A stretch of DNA of 64,000 bases from Fusobacterium varium. GTDB lineage: Bacteria > Fusobacteriota > Fusobacteriia > Fusobacteriales > Fusobacteriaceae. The translations under genes were made by a program, and so were the position numbers. This document shows, piece after piece, positions 42,959 through 49,860 of this stretch. The notes beneath the pieces are model-generated. The model was not told the DNA's origin, ran no database searches, and saw only the letters and a program-made list of their open reading frames with translations. The DNA lies in contig LR134390.1 in the NCBI GenBank assembly GCA_900637705.1, positions 992,001 to 1,056,000 of the forward strand. Reading direction: 5' to 3'. The stretch's first letter is position 1, and each line of letters starts with the position of its first letter.

Positions 42959-44002
42959 CTATTTAGTTTTTATATTTAAAACACTCCCTCGTTCTATAAC
43001 TCTAATTTCGGTATTTTCTACAACCCCATGTTCCCCTTTTAGAATGTTCATTAATTTTATTAATGCCTTTTCAGCAATAAAATCATCAAGATGATTTACA
43101 CTTGTTATTTTTGGAGTAGTATATTCACAAAGCTCCATATTATCATAACCAATTATTGAAACTTTTTGAGGAACTTTAATTCCATGCTTTGATAAAGCTC
43201 TCATAGCACCTAATGCTATGTAATCGTTACCTGCGAAAATAGCAGTATAATCAAATTCTTTATTTTTTTTAATATACTCATCTATTATTTTGTATGAACT
43301 TTCTTGAGTAAACTTTCCAGATATTATTTTTTGTTTTTCTATATTATTATCCTTCAAACATTTTAAATAACCTCGTGCTCTTTTAATTGAAGTTTTTCTC
43401 TTTATTTCTCCTGTAAGATGTAGAATGTTTCTATGTCCATTTTCAATCAAATATTGAGTTGCCTTATATCCACCTTCAAAATGATTAGGATTAATAGCAG
43501 ATACAGTGGTATTAGATACATTCTTTTCATAATCTAAAAGAACTATTTTATTTTTAGAATTTATAAGATTTTCTATTTCTTTGAATTTTTTTCCCCCAGA
43601 AATAACAAGAGCACCATCTATAATTCCATTGGCAAATATTTTTTCCCATGTAGTTCCTTTTTTATTAATATATGAAACTAATATTAGATATCCTAAATTT
43701 TCTGCTGCATCAATAATTTTTGATATTAATTCTGAATAATATAAAGATTCAGATATTTTTTTATAACTTTTTTCATTCGTACTAGATTTTCCAGTATAAA
43801 CAAATAATCCAATAATTCCAGATTTTTTTCCAGCTAATTTTTTTGCAGATAAATTTGGATAATATCCATTTTCTTCTATAACTTTTAAAACTTTTTCTTT
43901 TGTTTCAGGTGAAATATCTGGATAATTATTTATAACTCTTGATACTGTACTTCTAGAAACTCCGGCAAGTTGGGCTATAATTTTACTATTAATTTTTTTC
44001 AC
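42959..44002 (-). CDS. LacI family transcriptional regulator of the TRAP operon
   Basis: A ~345-residue LacI/GalR regulator: HTH in SKIIAQLAGVSRSTVSRVINN with hinge helix ISPETKEKVLKVIEENGYYPN, then a periplasmic-binding-like effector domain (IIGLFVYT, GVVISGG-like VISGGKKFKE, LDYEKNV, FAGNDYIALGAMRAL, SIIGYDNMELCEYTTPKITSV). Two starts are possible: GTG at 44002, which is inside AGAGGTG, or ATT at 43993, 6 bases after AGAGGTG (giving N-S-K-I-I-A). The latter has better spacing but is non-standard. It probably controls the adjacent TRAP genes in response to their substrate or a breakdown product. Confidence 0.92.
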   Translation of the reverse strand: MKKINSKIIAQLAGVSRSTVSRVINNYPDISPETKEKVLKVIEENGYYPNLSAKKLAGKKSGIIGLFVYTGKSSTNEKSYKKISESLYYSELISKIIDAAENLGYLILVSYINKKGTTWEKIFANGIIDGALVISGGKKFKEIENLINSKNKIVLLDYEKNVSNTTVSAINPNHFEGGYKATQYLIENGHRNILHLTGEIKRKTSIKRARGYLKCLKDNNIEKQKIISGKFTQESSYKIIDEYIKKNKEFDYTAIFAGNDYIALGAMRALSKHGIKVPQKVSIIGYDNMELCEYTTPKITSVNHLDDFIAEKALIKLMNILKGEHGVVENTEIRVIERGSVLNIKTK

Positions 44003-44034
44003 CTCTTAATTTATTTATCAAAAACAAATTTACT

Positions 44035-44044
44035 AACACGTGTT
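44035..44044. promoter_or_regulatory. LacI-type operator candidate
   Basis: AACACGTGTT is a perfect 10-base palindrome with the central CG typical of LacI/GalR sites, placed 33 bases upstream of the lacI start. It would suit autoregulation. Confidence 0.5.
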
Positions 44045-44261
44045 CGGAACTTTGTATTCAAACTATATAATTTTTTTTGCTACTAGTCAATTTTAAAAAT
44101 TATATCTTTATAATATTTTATATATATTTTCATAATATTTATTGTTAAAAAAGTACATTAAAATCATTTTTAGAATACATATATTTAAAAAATAAAATAA
44201 ATTAAAAAGAAAAGAGATTGTGAGATTTTCTAAACAGTTCAAATAAAAATATTGCATAGAA

Positions 44262-44316
44262 AAAGGAATTGTTCAAATCACTGATTAAAAATCATCAATT
44301 TGTAACAATTCCCTTT
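44262..44316 (-). terminator. Terminator of the D-serine operon
   Basis: On the minus strand AAAGGGAATTGTT (44316-44304) pairs with AACAATTCCTTT (44273-44262) with one bulge and is followed by TTCT; the loop holds a further small stem. Confidence 0.7.
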
Positions 44317-44338
44317 CTATCTTTATATTTTATTGAAG

Positions 44339-45447
44339 TTAAATTTGTTTAAAACTATTTCCTCTGACATCTACAGGAATGCTTTTTAATACATTGTTAT
44401 CTTTTATAACTGTGTAATAGCTGCATAAATTAGCAGTAGAACATGAATGGTTAGGAATAATTTCTATTTTATCTCCTACTTTCAAGTTAGTTTCCCCATG
44501 AATATGAAGTTTTCCCACTTCTTCTGAAAGAGATGCAACAATTACTTCAGGATGACCAATTACAGTTCCAAAACCTACTATCGAATTATTTCCATGAGCT
44601 CCCTGGTCTAGTCCCAGGCATTTAGCTCCAGCATCACAGATAAATAAATCTTCTTTAGGATGAGAAATTATTGTAGCATAAACAGTTAAAGCACAATCAT
44701 TTATTTCAGCCTTTTTTATAGATAACTGAATACTATCTAAAAATACATAATTTCCAGGATGAAGTACATTTATATTTTTATCTTTTACAGCCTCACTAAA
44801 TGTTGGTGTTGAACCACTTGTTATATATTCTAATTCATAGCCAGCATCATTCATATATTTTTTAGCAGTATCTAAAGTTTTGCATTCATCAATAACATAT
44901 TTATGAACCTCATTTTCACAAGTTGCAGAATATACATGACCAGGATGAGTGGAGATTCCTCTTAATTTCAATCCCTTCATAGTTTTTAATTTATCTGCAA
45001 ATTCAACAATTTTATTTACAGGTAATCCAAAACGGTGTAAACCACTATCGACTATAATTGTATAACTTACAACTGTATCAGCAGCAACAGCCATGTCATT
45101 TATCATTTTAGCAGCTTCTAAATTATCAATTCTTATTATAAAATCACTTTTTTTAGTTAATTCTATTACTCTTTCTATGCTTTCTTTACTTGCCACTGGA
45201 TAGGCATACATTATTTTTTTAATCCTATTTTGCAGCAAGCTTCAGCTTCATCTAATGTTCCACATAAAGCACCAGTTGCCCCAGCTTCTATTTGCATTTT
45301 TAAAAGTTCCATACTTTTATGAGTTTTTATCATAGGCCATAATTCTTTTCCATTATTGGTACACATTTTTTGGTATGTTTTTATATTGTTTTCTAATGCA
45401 TTTAAATTTAGTAGAATCGCTGGAGTTTTAAGATTTTCTTTTTTCAT
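44339..45447 (-). pseudogene. Fold-III PLP enzyme: D-threonine aldolase / DSD1-type D-serine dehydratase, frameshifted
   Basis: The N-terminal frame (45447 to 45211) has the alanine-racemase-like barrel start TPAILLNLNALENNI and the PLP lysine segment MIKTHKSMELL, stopping after CKIGLKK. One base added to the A7 run (45214-45220) joins IMYAYPVASKESIERV and the rest, including STHPGHVYS, TSGSTPTFSEA, and the zinc-site IIPNHSCSTANLC near the end (His and Cys ligands of the DSD1/D-threonine aldolase group). The restored protein has 369 residues, normal for the family. It follows dsdA by 13 bases in a three-gene operon, so D-serine or D-threonine breakdown is likely. Confidence 0.85.
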
Positions 45448-45460
45448 AATTTAATCCCCC

Positions 45461-46785
45461 TTATTTTAAATGAGTTTCTAAAAATTTTTCCATATCCTCT
45501 TTTGGAACCATTCTTCCACCAGTTGCCCAGCAGATGTGATAAGCATTTTCTATGTTTTTTCCAATTCTTTTTCAATATAGTTTTTTGTTTCTTCATATTT
45601 TAATAAAGATACAGGACCTTCAAAGGCAGCACATGATGATGGTTCTATCCTTATATTTTCTGATTCATTCAAACATCTTAAATAATCATAAAGTTTGTAA
45701 TCCTCCAGAGTAAATTCTCCGCTTAAAATATAATCCATCATTCTTCCTACAAGACCAGAAGGTCTTGCAACTGCAAGTCCATCAGCATGTGTTATTCCAT
45801 TTATTCCGATATCACGAACGCTGATTTTCTCATGAAATCCACTTTCCATTCCTAAAAGCATACAAGGGGCCAAAGTAGGTTCAATAAAGAAAATATATAC
45901 ATTTTCTTTAAAAATTCTTTTTAAGCCATAAGCAACCCCACCAGGAGCACCTCCTACTCCACATGGAATATAAACTAACAAAGGGTGTTCATTATCAATG
46001 AAAATATTTTTTTCATCTAATTGTTTTTTTAATCTTGAAGCTGCAACAGTATATCCTAAAAATAGATTCAATGATTTTTCATCATCTACAAAATAACTTT
46101 TAGAATCTGCGTCTGAATTTTTTCTTCCTTCTTCAACCGCTTTTCCGTAGTCATCAGCATATTCAACAACTTTTACTCCTTTTGATCTCAACATATCTTT
46201 TTTCCATTGTTTTGCATCAGCTGACATATGAACAATAACTTCAAATCCTAGAGCAGCACTTGTTATACCTATACTTAGACCTAGATTTCCAGTTGATCCT
46301 ACCTGAATTTTATAAGAGGAAAAGAATTTTTTAAATTTTTCATCTGCTAAAATTGAATAATCATCATTAATAGATAATATTCCTGCCTCAATAGCTAATT
46401 CTTCTGCATGTTTTAAAACTTCATATACTCCGCCTCTAGCTTTTATAGACCCAGCTACAGGAAGATGGCTGTCCATTTTTAAATATAATTTTCCAGGAAT
46501 TTGAGCATTATATTTTTTTTCAAGAGTTTTTTGCATAGAAAATATTGGTTCTAATGGAGATTCTATTATCCCATTTGTTCCTTCTGTTTCAGGAAAAGAT
46601 TTTTTTATAAATGGAGCAAATCTTTTAAGACGTTCCTCAGCATCTTTTAAATCTTCATCAGAAAGAGGAAGATTTTTTTCATATTCACTGTATGGAATTT
46701 CTTTTTTATTAATCCAACCTATTTCTTTTTTATCAGCTAATTTTTTAATAATAGCATCATTTTTGATTAGTTCTTCAATGTTCAT
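45461..46785 (-). pseudogene. dsdA: D-serine ammonia-lyase DsdA, frameshifted at the C-terminus
   Basis: DsdA converts D-serine to pyruvate and ammonia with PLP. The PLP lysine is in AGSIKARGG (Lys115), with [21 protein letters not shown] for phosphate binding and [11 protein letters not shown] late. The frame stops at 45550, but one added A in the A6 of GGAAAAAACAT (or the A5 just upstream) restores ENAYHICWATGGRMVPKEDM, the exact family C-terminus, ending at 45461; the whole is 441 residues (E. coli DsdA 442). ATG follows AAAGGAG. It lies between the GntP-type permease and the fold-III PLP enzyme. Confidence 0.92.
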
Positions 46786-46829
46786 TTTGTTCTCCTTTAT
46801 TATAAAAATATTTTAATTTATTGTTTATT

Positions 46830-48188
46830 TTATAAGAAAATCATTTTTAATATTATAACACAAATAAGTGCTGTTACAGATTGAAAAACACTTATTATAG
46901 GAAATACTTTATAAGCTGTTTCTGGTTTCATTCCTGATGTAGAAGTAACTACCCAGAAGAAATCATCATTTCCATGAAATACCATAAATCCTCCAGCAGC
47001 ACATGCCAGCATAGCTATAACTAATCCTATTGGTGAATTGAATCCAAGAATATCTACTAATGGCAATAACATAGAAGCAGCTGTAATCATTCCTACAGTA
47101 CCTGAACCAATTGCAGTTCTGAAAATTGCACCAATTATGTATGGAACTATTATTCCTATCGAGATTCCAGAAAATAGATTTAGAACTATATCTTGAAGAT
47201 TAGATAATTTTAAGATGGTTGCAAAAGCTCCACCAGCTCCAACTATTAAAACTATTTGTCCTGCTGTTTTTAATGCTTCACCAAATATTCCATCAAATGT
47301 CCATACTTCTTTATCATCAGGATGAACAGATTTATATGTAAAGAATGCAATAATTAATCCTATAAATAAAGCAACTACTGTCTGACCTAGAGCATCAACA
47401 ATATTATAGAACATTCCTTTTCCTAAAGGTGAAGATTCTAAAGTTGCAACAGTTCTTAGTAACATCAAAAATATTGGTAATAGGATAGGCAGAAAGCTCA
47501 TAAGAGGACTTGGAAGTTTTTTACTGCCATTTACCTTTATTATTTTACTAGCATCTTCTATCTCTGGTAAAAAATGATATTTCTTACCAAAAACTCTACC
47601 AGCTAAAATAGCAACAACTGTAACAGGAATAGAAACCAACATTCCAAGTAAAATAACTAATCCTAAATTAGAACCTAAGATTCCTGCAACTGCTAATGGT
47701 CCAGGTGTAGGAGGAACCAGCATATGTGTAGCATGTAATCCCATAGCCAAGGCTACTGCCATTGTTGTCATACTGGTACCAGTATCTTTACTTATTCTTT
47801 TAGCAAGTGGTGATAATAAGACAAATGCTGAATCACAAAATACAGGAATAGATACAAAATATCCAGTGACAGCCAATCCAATATCAGCATTTTTCTTTCC
47901 AGTAATTTTTAAAATTGTTTCAGCCATTGTTTCTGCAGCTCCACTATGTTCCAGAAGTGCCCCCATAACAGTTCCTATTGCAATAACTACTCCAATTCCT
48001 ACAATAGTTTCTCCTAATCCCCCAGAATATGCTCCAATGATAGCTGGAATTGAATGACCTGAAATAATTCCAAAAAAGAAAGCACTAATACTTAAAGCGA
48101 AAAAAGGATGTAATTTCACCTTAACTGTCAGTATTATCAATAGTAGTATTGATAATGCTATTGTTACAATAACAAATGTTGAACCCAT
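46830..48188 (-). CDS. GntP-family permease, probable D-serine transporter (DsdX-like)
   Basis: A 452-residue gluconate:H+ symporter-family protein with about twelve membrane helices. Family features: FFALSISAFFFGIISGHS, GIGVVIAIGTVMGALLEHSGAAETMA, HATHMLVPPTPGPLAVAGILG, GAGGAFATILK and FMVFHGNDDFFWV near the end. The family includes gluconate, glycerate and D-serine (DsdX) carriers; being first in an operon with dsdA makes D-serine the likely substrate (inference). ATG follows TAGGAGGT. Divergent from the XRE-cupin regulator. Confidence 0.9.
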   Translation of the reverse strand: MGSTFVIVTIALSILLLIILTVKVKLHPFFALSISAFFFGIISGHSIPAIIGAYSGGLGETIVGIGVVIAIGTVMGALLEHSGAAETMAETILKITGKKNADIGLAVTGYFVSIPVFCDSAFVLLSPLAKRISKDTGTSMTTMAVALAMGLHATHMLVPPTPGPLAVAGILGSNLGLVILLGMLVSIPVTVVAILAGRVFGKKYHFLPEIEDASKIIKVNGSKKLPSPLMSFLPILLPIFLMLLRTVATLESSPLGKGMFYNIVDALGQTVVALFIGLIIAFFTYKSVHPDDKEVWTFDGIFGEALKTAGQIVLIVGAGGAFATILKLSNLQDIVLNLFSGISIGIIVPYIIGAIFRTAIGSGTVGMITAASMLLPLVDILGFNSPIGLVIAMLACAAGGFMVFHGNDDFFWVVTSTSGMKPETAYKVFPIISVFQSVTALICVIILKMIFL

Positions 48189-48608
48189 AAAAATACCTCC
48201 TACTTTTTATTATATGTTGCTTTATATAAGTTCTTTTAAATAAAGAATTTTATTACCTTGATATATTAAAAAATAATTGATAACAATATATTTTTTGCTT
48301 TTTAAGTTAATATAATTAAATTTTAATAAGAAATTTCTTCATATTCAAGAAATGATTTCTTTAAAAATATTAAATATTAATTAATTTTTATATAGTTAAA
48401 ATTTATTTTTAAATGAATTGTATATTAAAAGTTCTATATGTTTTGATTTTTGATTGAATTATACTTTATAAAAAATAAAATGTCAATAAAAAATTAAATA
48501 CAATTAAATTTAATTGTATTTAATTAAATGGTGCTGAATAAAACATAGTAGAGAAAATTTTTTAAATAGTATATAATTGTAATATATTAAAATAAGAAAG
48601 GATTAAAA
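48189..48608. other. Divergent control region of the D-serine operon
   Basis: About 420 very AT-rich bases between gntP and the XRE-cupin gene. It holds a perfect 34-base palindrome (48492-48525) and likely both promoters, though no single consensus pair stands out. No gene is seen. Confidence 0.6.
48492..48525. repeat. Perfect 34-base palindrome, candidate XRE-cupin operator
   Basis: The half-site AATTAAATACAATTAAA (48492-48508) is followed without a spacer by its exact reverse complement. It lies about 83 bases upstream of the regulator start, in the shared divergent region. No T run or coding role explains it. Confidence 0.7.
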
Positions 48609-49166
48609 ATGGATAAAGAAATAAATGTAGGAGCCATAATTAAAAGAATTAGAATAGAAAAAGGATTGCTGTTAAAAGATGTTGCTGAGAAATGTGAAAT
48701 TTCTTCATCTATGCTTAGTCAGATTGAAAAGGGAAATGCTAATCCTTCTTTAAATACAATAAAATCAATTGCACAAGCTTTGGAAATTCCTCTATTTAAA
48801 TTTTTTATAGAACCTGAAAAAGAGGATATAAGTATTAATATTTTGAAAAAAGAAGATAGAAAAATAATAAATACTAAAAAGATAAGATATGAGCTTCTTT
48901 CTCCAGAAGGGCCTACTAATATCGAATGTATGAAAATGACTTTTACTGAAAAAAATGCTGAAACTTCAATAGAACCAATGGCACATAAAGGAGAAGAGGT
49001 AGCCATTCTTTTAAGTGGGAAAGTAAAAATAACTATAGGGAATCAGTCTTGTGAGATGGAGCCAGGAGATTCAGTTTATATACCTGCATTAAAGCCTCAT
49101 AAATGGACTAATTTAAATGCTGGAGAAAGTGTTGTGCTTTTTTCTGTGACTCCACCTGAGTTTTAG
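48609..49166 (+). CDS. XRE-family regulator with C-terminal cupin domain
   Basis: A 185-residue regulator. Residues 8-65 form the HTH (IIKRIRIEKGLLLKDVAEKCEISSSMLSQIEKGNANPSLNTIKSIA), and residues about 110-180 a cupin barrel (MAHKGEEVAILLSGKVKITIGNQSCEMEPGDSVYIPALKPHKWTN). This two-domain type (PuuR/ SutR-like) often controls amino-acid or amine catabolism, with the cupin binding a small ligand. Being divergent from gntP-dsdA and next to a long palindrome, it probably controls the D-serine operon and itself. Shine-Dalgarno AAAGGA, ending at a hairpin. Confidence 0.92.
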   Translation: MDKEINVGAIIKRIRIEKGLLLKDVAEKCEISSSMLSQIEKGNANPSLNTIKSIAQALEIPLFKFFIEPEKEDISINILKKEDRKIINTKKIRYELLSPEGPTNIECMKMTFTEKNAETSIEPMAHKGEEVAILLSGKVKITIGNQSCEMEPGDSVYIPALKPHKWTNLNAGESVVLFSVTPPEF

Positions 49167-49195
49167 GGTTATTATGAAAAATAAAATATAAAATA

Positions 49196-49222
49196 AAAAA
49201 GGGATATTTTCCCTTTTTATTT
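49196..49222 (+). terminator. Intrinsic terminator after the XRE-cupin gene
   Basis: AAAAAGGGA pairs with TTCCCTTTTT around a short TAT loop, followed by A/T-rich sequence. Confidence 0.75.
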
Positions 49223-49458
49223 ATAGTTAAAAGAAATTTATTTTTTTGCGTTGATTAAAAATGAAAAGCAATAATTTTGAAATTTAAAAAATAAAATTAT
49301 ATATATTTAGGTGCTTTTGAATATTACTATTTTAATATTAAATAATTTTGAATTATTTGTATTATTTTCAATATCTATAATTTTTTATAATAATATTTAG
49401 TGAGTCTTAAAAAATATTTTCATATTTTTGATTCAAATAAAATTACTAGAATATCAGG

Positions 49459-49818
49459 TTATTCTACAATAACTTTAAAACGACATTTTTCAGCTCCTCC
49501 TAATACAGTTTCAATCATTTCTACTTGTATGTTTTTATTAGGCATTAAATTTCCAAGGATATATAATATACTTTGTCGTGAGCATTCACAATGTGATACA
49601 CTGTTTATTTTTCCAGATAATACTTCTTCACAAACACATTTAGGATAACCTATCTCATAGATGTGCCCAGGTTCTATAATTTTTGCCAATAACGCTTCTG
49701 TATTACCATATTTTTTATATTGTTCATCTAAATTACAACCGCATTCCATAAATTGTTTTTTCTGAATTGGTAAGACACTATCTTTAACACAGGTAATTGC
49801 TTTATTTCTATAATTCAT
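49459..49818 (-). CDS. Small cysteine-rich protein, DUF6144/V4R-like end
   Basis: A 119-residue protein with nine cysteines, including GCNLDEQYKKYGN, PKCVCEEVLSGKINSVSHCECSRQS and a late GGAEKCRFKVIVE. The last part (C-x-C ... then two strands ending CRFKI-like) resembles the DUF6144/V4R-like ends of proteins thought to bind metals or aromatic ligands, but I am not certain. ATG at 49818 is chosen because GGGGG lies 7 bases upstream; the frame extends further without a better site. It is isolated between AT-rich spacers. Function unknown. Confidence 0.6.
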   Translation of the reverse strand: MNYRNKAITCVKDSVLPIQKKQFMECGCNLDEQYKKYGNTEALLAKIIEPGHIYEIGYPKCVCEEVLSGKINSVSHCECSRQSILYILGNLMPNKNIQVEMIETVLGGAEKCRFKVIVE

Positions 49819-49860
49819 TTTATTTCCCCCTAAGTTTTTTTGATTTTTTAATTCTATCAT

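Follow-up and report, generated by a model that had tools for sequence, protein, structure and literature searches.

The locus lies in a 64,000-nt stretch of Fusobacterium varium DNA (the window). It comprises a regulator gene on the plus strand and, on the minus strand, three genes in the order permease (dsdX), dsdA and DSD:

48609–49166, plus strand: XRE-cupin regulator of 185 aa (HTH_3 + Cupin_2), assigned from domain matches; proposed binder
46830–48188, minus strand: GntP-family permease, DsdX-like, assigned from Pfam; proposed target
45550–46785, minus strand: D-serine ammonia-lyase gene dsdA, assigned from TIGR02035; frame interrupted near the 3' end in the F. varium genome
44339–45447, minus strand: gene for a DSD-type PLP enzyme (Ala_racemase_N + D-ser_dehydrat), assigned from its domains; split over two frames here

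The regulator carries an N-terminal XRE/HTH_3 domain (PF01381, 49.1 bits, cut-off 23) and a C-terminal cupin domain (PF07883, 51.4 bits, cut-off 27.2). Residues His126, Glu130 and His164 show no variation among 20 aligned homologues, and could form the metal or ligand site of the cupin. The dsdA product scored 697.1 bits against TIGR02035, above the cut-off of 368.25. The permease reached 208.5 bits against the DsdX profile NF007395, below the cut-off of 618; its gene context suggests that it transports D-serine. Within 45214–45550 (minus strand), dsdA near its 3' end and DSD near its 5' end are each frame-broken in the F. varium genome. Both are intact frames in the close relatives G008, G009 and G010, and the breaks may be either errors of sequencing or signs of recent decay. 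A 133-aa minus-strand reading frame (49459–49860) downstream of the regulator gene matched nothing in Pfam or NCBIfam at E 0.001.

Between regulator and permease the sequence contains a long palindrome:

48492–48525, no strand: perfect 34-bp palindrome, seen in the sequence; single copy per genome in 4 of 98 genomes

Its halves, AATTAAATACAATTAAA followed directly by TTTAATTGTATTTAATT, form a gap-free 17+17 inverted repeat with 100% complementarity, just as the preliminary description had it. That description also named the flanking genes correctly: the HTH_3 + Cupin_2 protein lies to one side, the GntP-family permease and the D-serine ammonia-lyase to the other. The longest other perfect palindrome in the window is 20 bp. 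To gauge chance occurrence, we simulated 3 Mb of DNA under each of four Markov models, based on local intergenic composition (orders 1 and 2) or window composition (orders 3 and 5). No palindrome of 34 bp or longer appeared under any of them, which bears out the small chance probability claimed earlier. The intergenic models of orders 1 and 2 yielded 5 and 3 palindromes of at least 28 bp, respectively, three of those from the order-1 model being at least 32 bp. Since the simulations come this close, a 34-bp palindrome is rare yet possible in such DNA. The 30-bp core of the palindrome occurs once in the 3.30-Mb, one-contig genome, with up to three mismatches allowed. One copy per genome rules out a repeat family or mobile element.

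For comparison, we searched 98 Fusobacteriota genomes with the 34-mer, leaving four positions free and allowing up to two mismatches. Four genomes (F. varium, G008, G009 and G010) contain it, once each and always between regulator and permease, the place at which the preliminary description had proposed to look for it in relatives. The regulators of these genomes are at least 94% identical to that of F. varium. Yet the palindrome is perfect only in F. varium and G009. Judged by what is kept, the conserved element is smaller than the 34-bp palindrome and consists of two abutting 15-bp dyads of the form TTWAAT-N3-ATTWAA:

48494–48508, no strand: operator dyad 1, TTAAATACAATTAAA, called from recurrence in orthologous loci and conservation
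48509–48523, no strand: operator dyad 2, TTTAATTGTATTTAA, abutting dyad 1, called on the same grounds

The four close species agree at each of the 20 fixed dyad positions; of the 10 free positions they agree at 4, and of the 420 in the whole region at 296. The six variable positions of the 34-mer all fall at W or N (free) positions (P = 1.6e-4, for a dyad motif defined with these four-species sequences in view). When the dyad mask was shifted along the region, six other offsets, located in the conserved region ends, were equally invariant; the 34-mer is distinguished by having changes solely at free positions. A single 34-bp operator is thus demoted from conserved unit to rival explanation, because symmetry is lost in two of the four species while both dyads stay intact.

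Four orthologous loci (64–66% identity; L002, L009, L026 and L027) lack the 34-mer and have dyads. Exact dyads number two in the intergenic region of L002, three in G038 (L026), five in G034 (L027) and one in G005 (L009), and two in each of the four close species. Markov models of order 1–3 predict 0.02 to 0.27 dyads for the same regions (0.02–0.20 for the four orthologous loci), and the fraction of Markov samples with at least the observed counts did not exceed 0.035. Spacing between dyads varies among these other lineages. Such inconstancy, together with the loss of symmetry in G008 and G010, makes it unlikely that the full 34-bp symmetry is itself functional, for example by seating two dimers as a symmetric tetramer. 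On the other side, G009 stays perfect through a matching base change in both halves, and L002 contains a perfect 16+3+16 inverted repeat (2804–2838) centred on one dyad; symmetry beyond 15 bp may therefore matter. L002 is a MAG contig labelled Brachyspira, in which the dsdX-like gene falls into two frames (2342–2650 and 1296–2339). Its dsdA and regulator are 81% and 65% identical to those of F. varium, respectively, and the locus represents either an inter-phylum transfer or a misplaced contig.

Paired dyads were confined to this kind of locus. Two dyads 0–25 bp apart occur at eight places in the 98 genomes, each with an XRE-cupin gene and either dsdX or a DSD-type gene next to it; a reversed-pair control gave five places in four of the same genomes. 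In seven cases (G000, G008, G009, G010, G034, G054 and G059), the pair separates the XRE-cupin gene from a dsdX or DSD gene that is read divergently. In the remaining one, from G014, it separates an XRE-cupin gene that is 37% identical from a co-directional DSD gene. The dyad motif was defined knowing five of the regions, so independent support comes only from G014, G054 and G059 for the pair and from L037 and L040 for the single dyad.

Single dyads are not enriched in F. varium. Its genome has 37, on par with 35 for the reversed-pattern control, so copies elsewhere in that genome look like chance, and we rejected the idea of a genome-wide regulon. In G038, three of ten genomic dyads lie at the D-serine locus (reversed control, 14), and in G034 five of 55. 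Unlike in F. varium and G038, single dyads in G034 are commoner than the reversed pattern (55 versus 24). Three G034 dyads 6–10 kb downstream of the locus were considered as a second target and discarded, as the copies lie inside or at the end of L056 reading frames.

We also compared the regulators by their recognition helix, using 41 loci that remained after 11 duplicates of the same places were left out. A dyad was counted if exact and no farther from the regulator gene than 450 bp on the upstream side or 150 bp on the downstream side. The helix SxS(M/L)LSQIEKGxANPS is found at all 13 loci that carry a dyad; of the 28 that lack one, none has an exact match. Several dyad-free upstream regions are coding or less AT-rich, so absence there is weak evidence. 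A near match of the helix, GVSKSMLAQIEKGNANPS, occurs in the dyad-free L003 and L004, which come from Lachnospiraceae and Clostridia MAGs and are similar to the others in the HTH only. Overall identity fails to explain the pattern, because L028 and L029 (45–46% identity) lack the dyad whereas the less similar L037 and L039–L041 (41.5–43%) have it. In a tree of 39 regulators, motif carriers were not all united, and the fork joining the main groups was left open; L050 (G014) clustered with two dyad-free regulators (support 94/85) on a long branch. In L010 and L030, an XRE-cupin gene sits beside dsdA, the helix differs (TSSML or TASML ... VNPS), and there is no TTWAAT-N3-ATTWAA dyad; these regulators may read another site. 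Putting helix and site together, we tentatively suggest a recognition code, although we would not count on it: proteins with the SxS(M/L)LSQIEKGxANPS helix would read TTWAAT-N3-ATTWAA and control a D-serine/D-hydroxy-amino-acid breakdown module that is kept across Fusobacteriaceae genera, and whose site also appears in the Brachyspira-labelled L002, as if the module moved with its operator. In F. varium, two dimers would then sit next to one another as a symmetric composite.

How these dyads might act depends on their placing relative to promoters, for which we scanned the intergenic region:

48458–48486, minus strand: predicted sigma-70 promoter of dsdX-dsdA-DSD, TTGACA-17-TATAAT, 12/12 consensus, start at ∼48451
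48549–48577, plus strand: predicted promoter of the XRE-cupin gene, TAGAGA-17-TATAAT, 10/12 consensus, start at ∼48584
48562–48576, no strand: one-mismatch dyad, TTAAATAGTATATAA, overlapping the xre -10; possible autoregulatory site

Here and in every other lineage, promoters are consensus matches only, and promoter-like matches in the intergenic stretch are no commoner than in shuffled sequence (6 versus a mean of 7.2). The hexamers of both are unchanged across the four close species. Only 7 bp separate the predicted dsdX -35 from the start of the first dyad, which lies upstream of it; on the regulator side, 23 bp lie between the end of the palindrome and the weaker predicted -35 of xre, again with the palindrome upstream. 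With these distances, control in both directions, as proposed earlier, is only a possibility. The one-mismatch dyad, present in F. varium, G009 and G010 and missing from G008, is a better candidate for autoregulation than the palindrome.

From these data, the palindrome probably serves as a double operator for the adjacent XRE-cupin regulator, which would repress dsdX-dsdA-DSD until released by a ligand. Each 15-bp dyad would be of a size for one XRE-cupin dimer. Regulator bound there, against the -35 of the dsdX-dsdA-DSD promoter, would impede RNA polymerase, and would come off once its cupin domain senses D-serine or a related metabolite. D-serine is suggested as the ligand by the content of the operon. 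What stands of the original operator idea is a site for the XRE-cupin protein, given a position kept in four species, a pair that in 98 genomes always adjoins such a regulator, and the helix correlation; what falls is the whole 34-bp palindrome as the conserved unit.

The same protein at the same site could instead activate dsdX from upstream of the -35, the dyad centres lying at about -50 and -65. We regard this as unlikely, though the placing of the dyads upstream of the predicted -35 in both F. varium and G038, rather than within the promoter, speaks for it and is a point against repression. We favour repression because the predicted dsdX promoter already matches the consensus fully, because dyad placing relative to predicted promoters differs among lineages, and because those Pseudomonas proteins whose regulons have been determined act as inhibitors of transcription, as far as the accessible part of that study goes (PMC7901475). 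In G054 and G059, a dyad lies over the predicted start, which speaks against activation. In G014 the first dyad includes TATAAT (by eye), and the dyads of G005 and L037 showed no simple relation to any predicted promoter.

The binder of the dyads is most likely the adjacent XRE-cupin protein. Some other protein that coincidentally controls the D-serine genes is improbable: the pairing of dyad and regulator is drawn from sequence, which leaves room for another binder, but the motif correlates with the XRE-cupin recognition helix, and dyads stay next to the regulator even where the locus is rearranged, as in G014 with its co-directional regulator and DSD genes. Least credible of all is that no protein binds and that the palindrome marks an RNA hairpin or terminator, a cruciform, an upstream promoter element rich in AT, or chance. 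In favour, AT makes up 87% of the region, and such DNA is rich in shorter palindromes. Yet the palindrome is outside both transcripts if the predicted promoters are right, the paired motif marks one locus kind among 98 genomes, and a terminator or structured RNA was rejected for lack of any terminator-like site and of any Rfam match up to E = 1 across 44000–49300.

The arrangement resembles, in part, known systems. The E. coli dsdC-dsdXA locus has an operon for a permease and D-serine ammonia-lyase with an adjacent divergent regulator, DsdC, a LysR-type activator. F. varium shares the operon and the divergent regulator, but its regulator is of the XRE-cupin kind and its third gene encodes a DSD-type enzyme. 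DsdC-type (LysR) regulation was accordingly discarded, the adjacent regulator being HTH_3 + Cupin_2. Over its whole length, the best NCBIfam match of the regulator is E. coli PuuR (NF007408); at 82.7 bits against a cut-off of 211 we rejected that identity, and, unlike for PuuR, no puuR-type genes are among the annotated neighbours.

A closer likeness is to the XRE-cupin proteins of Pseudomonas aeruginosa (PsdR, PauR, ErfA and others). In the portion of the report available, these are described as local inhibitors that act mostly on the transcription of nearby genes; all three motifs determined were palindromic, and PauR has many scattered targets (PMC7901475). Like those described there, the F. 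varium regulator combines an HTH with a cupin domain, has enzyme and transporter genes as neighbours and, by sequence, a palindromic site beside its own gene; unlike them, its motif is the very AT-rich TTWAAT-N3-ATTWAA and its targets are of D-serine type (PMC7901475). By architecture and locus design, then, it is a regulator of the XRE-cupin kind, and the palindrome is most likely a fresh instance of an ordinary type of bacterial control site, two regulator sites side by side. Among the matches listed in the literature searched (titles and abstract starts, with few subscription journals), there was no XRE-cupin regulator of D-serine genes.

For D-serine catabolism in Fusobacteriaceae, the locus offers a candidate regulator and a concrete candidate sequence for its operator. 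For a recognisable XRE-cupin subgroup, the recognition helix may predict the DNA site. It also illustrates how a striking long palindrome can arise from two smaller abutting dyads. A loose parallel for higher-order binding is an XRE-RES toxin-antitoxin regulator with, in the accessible part of its description, two binding sites on a palindromic promoter repeat (PMC12204516).
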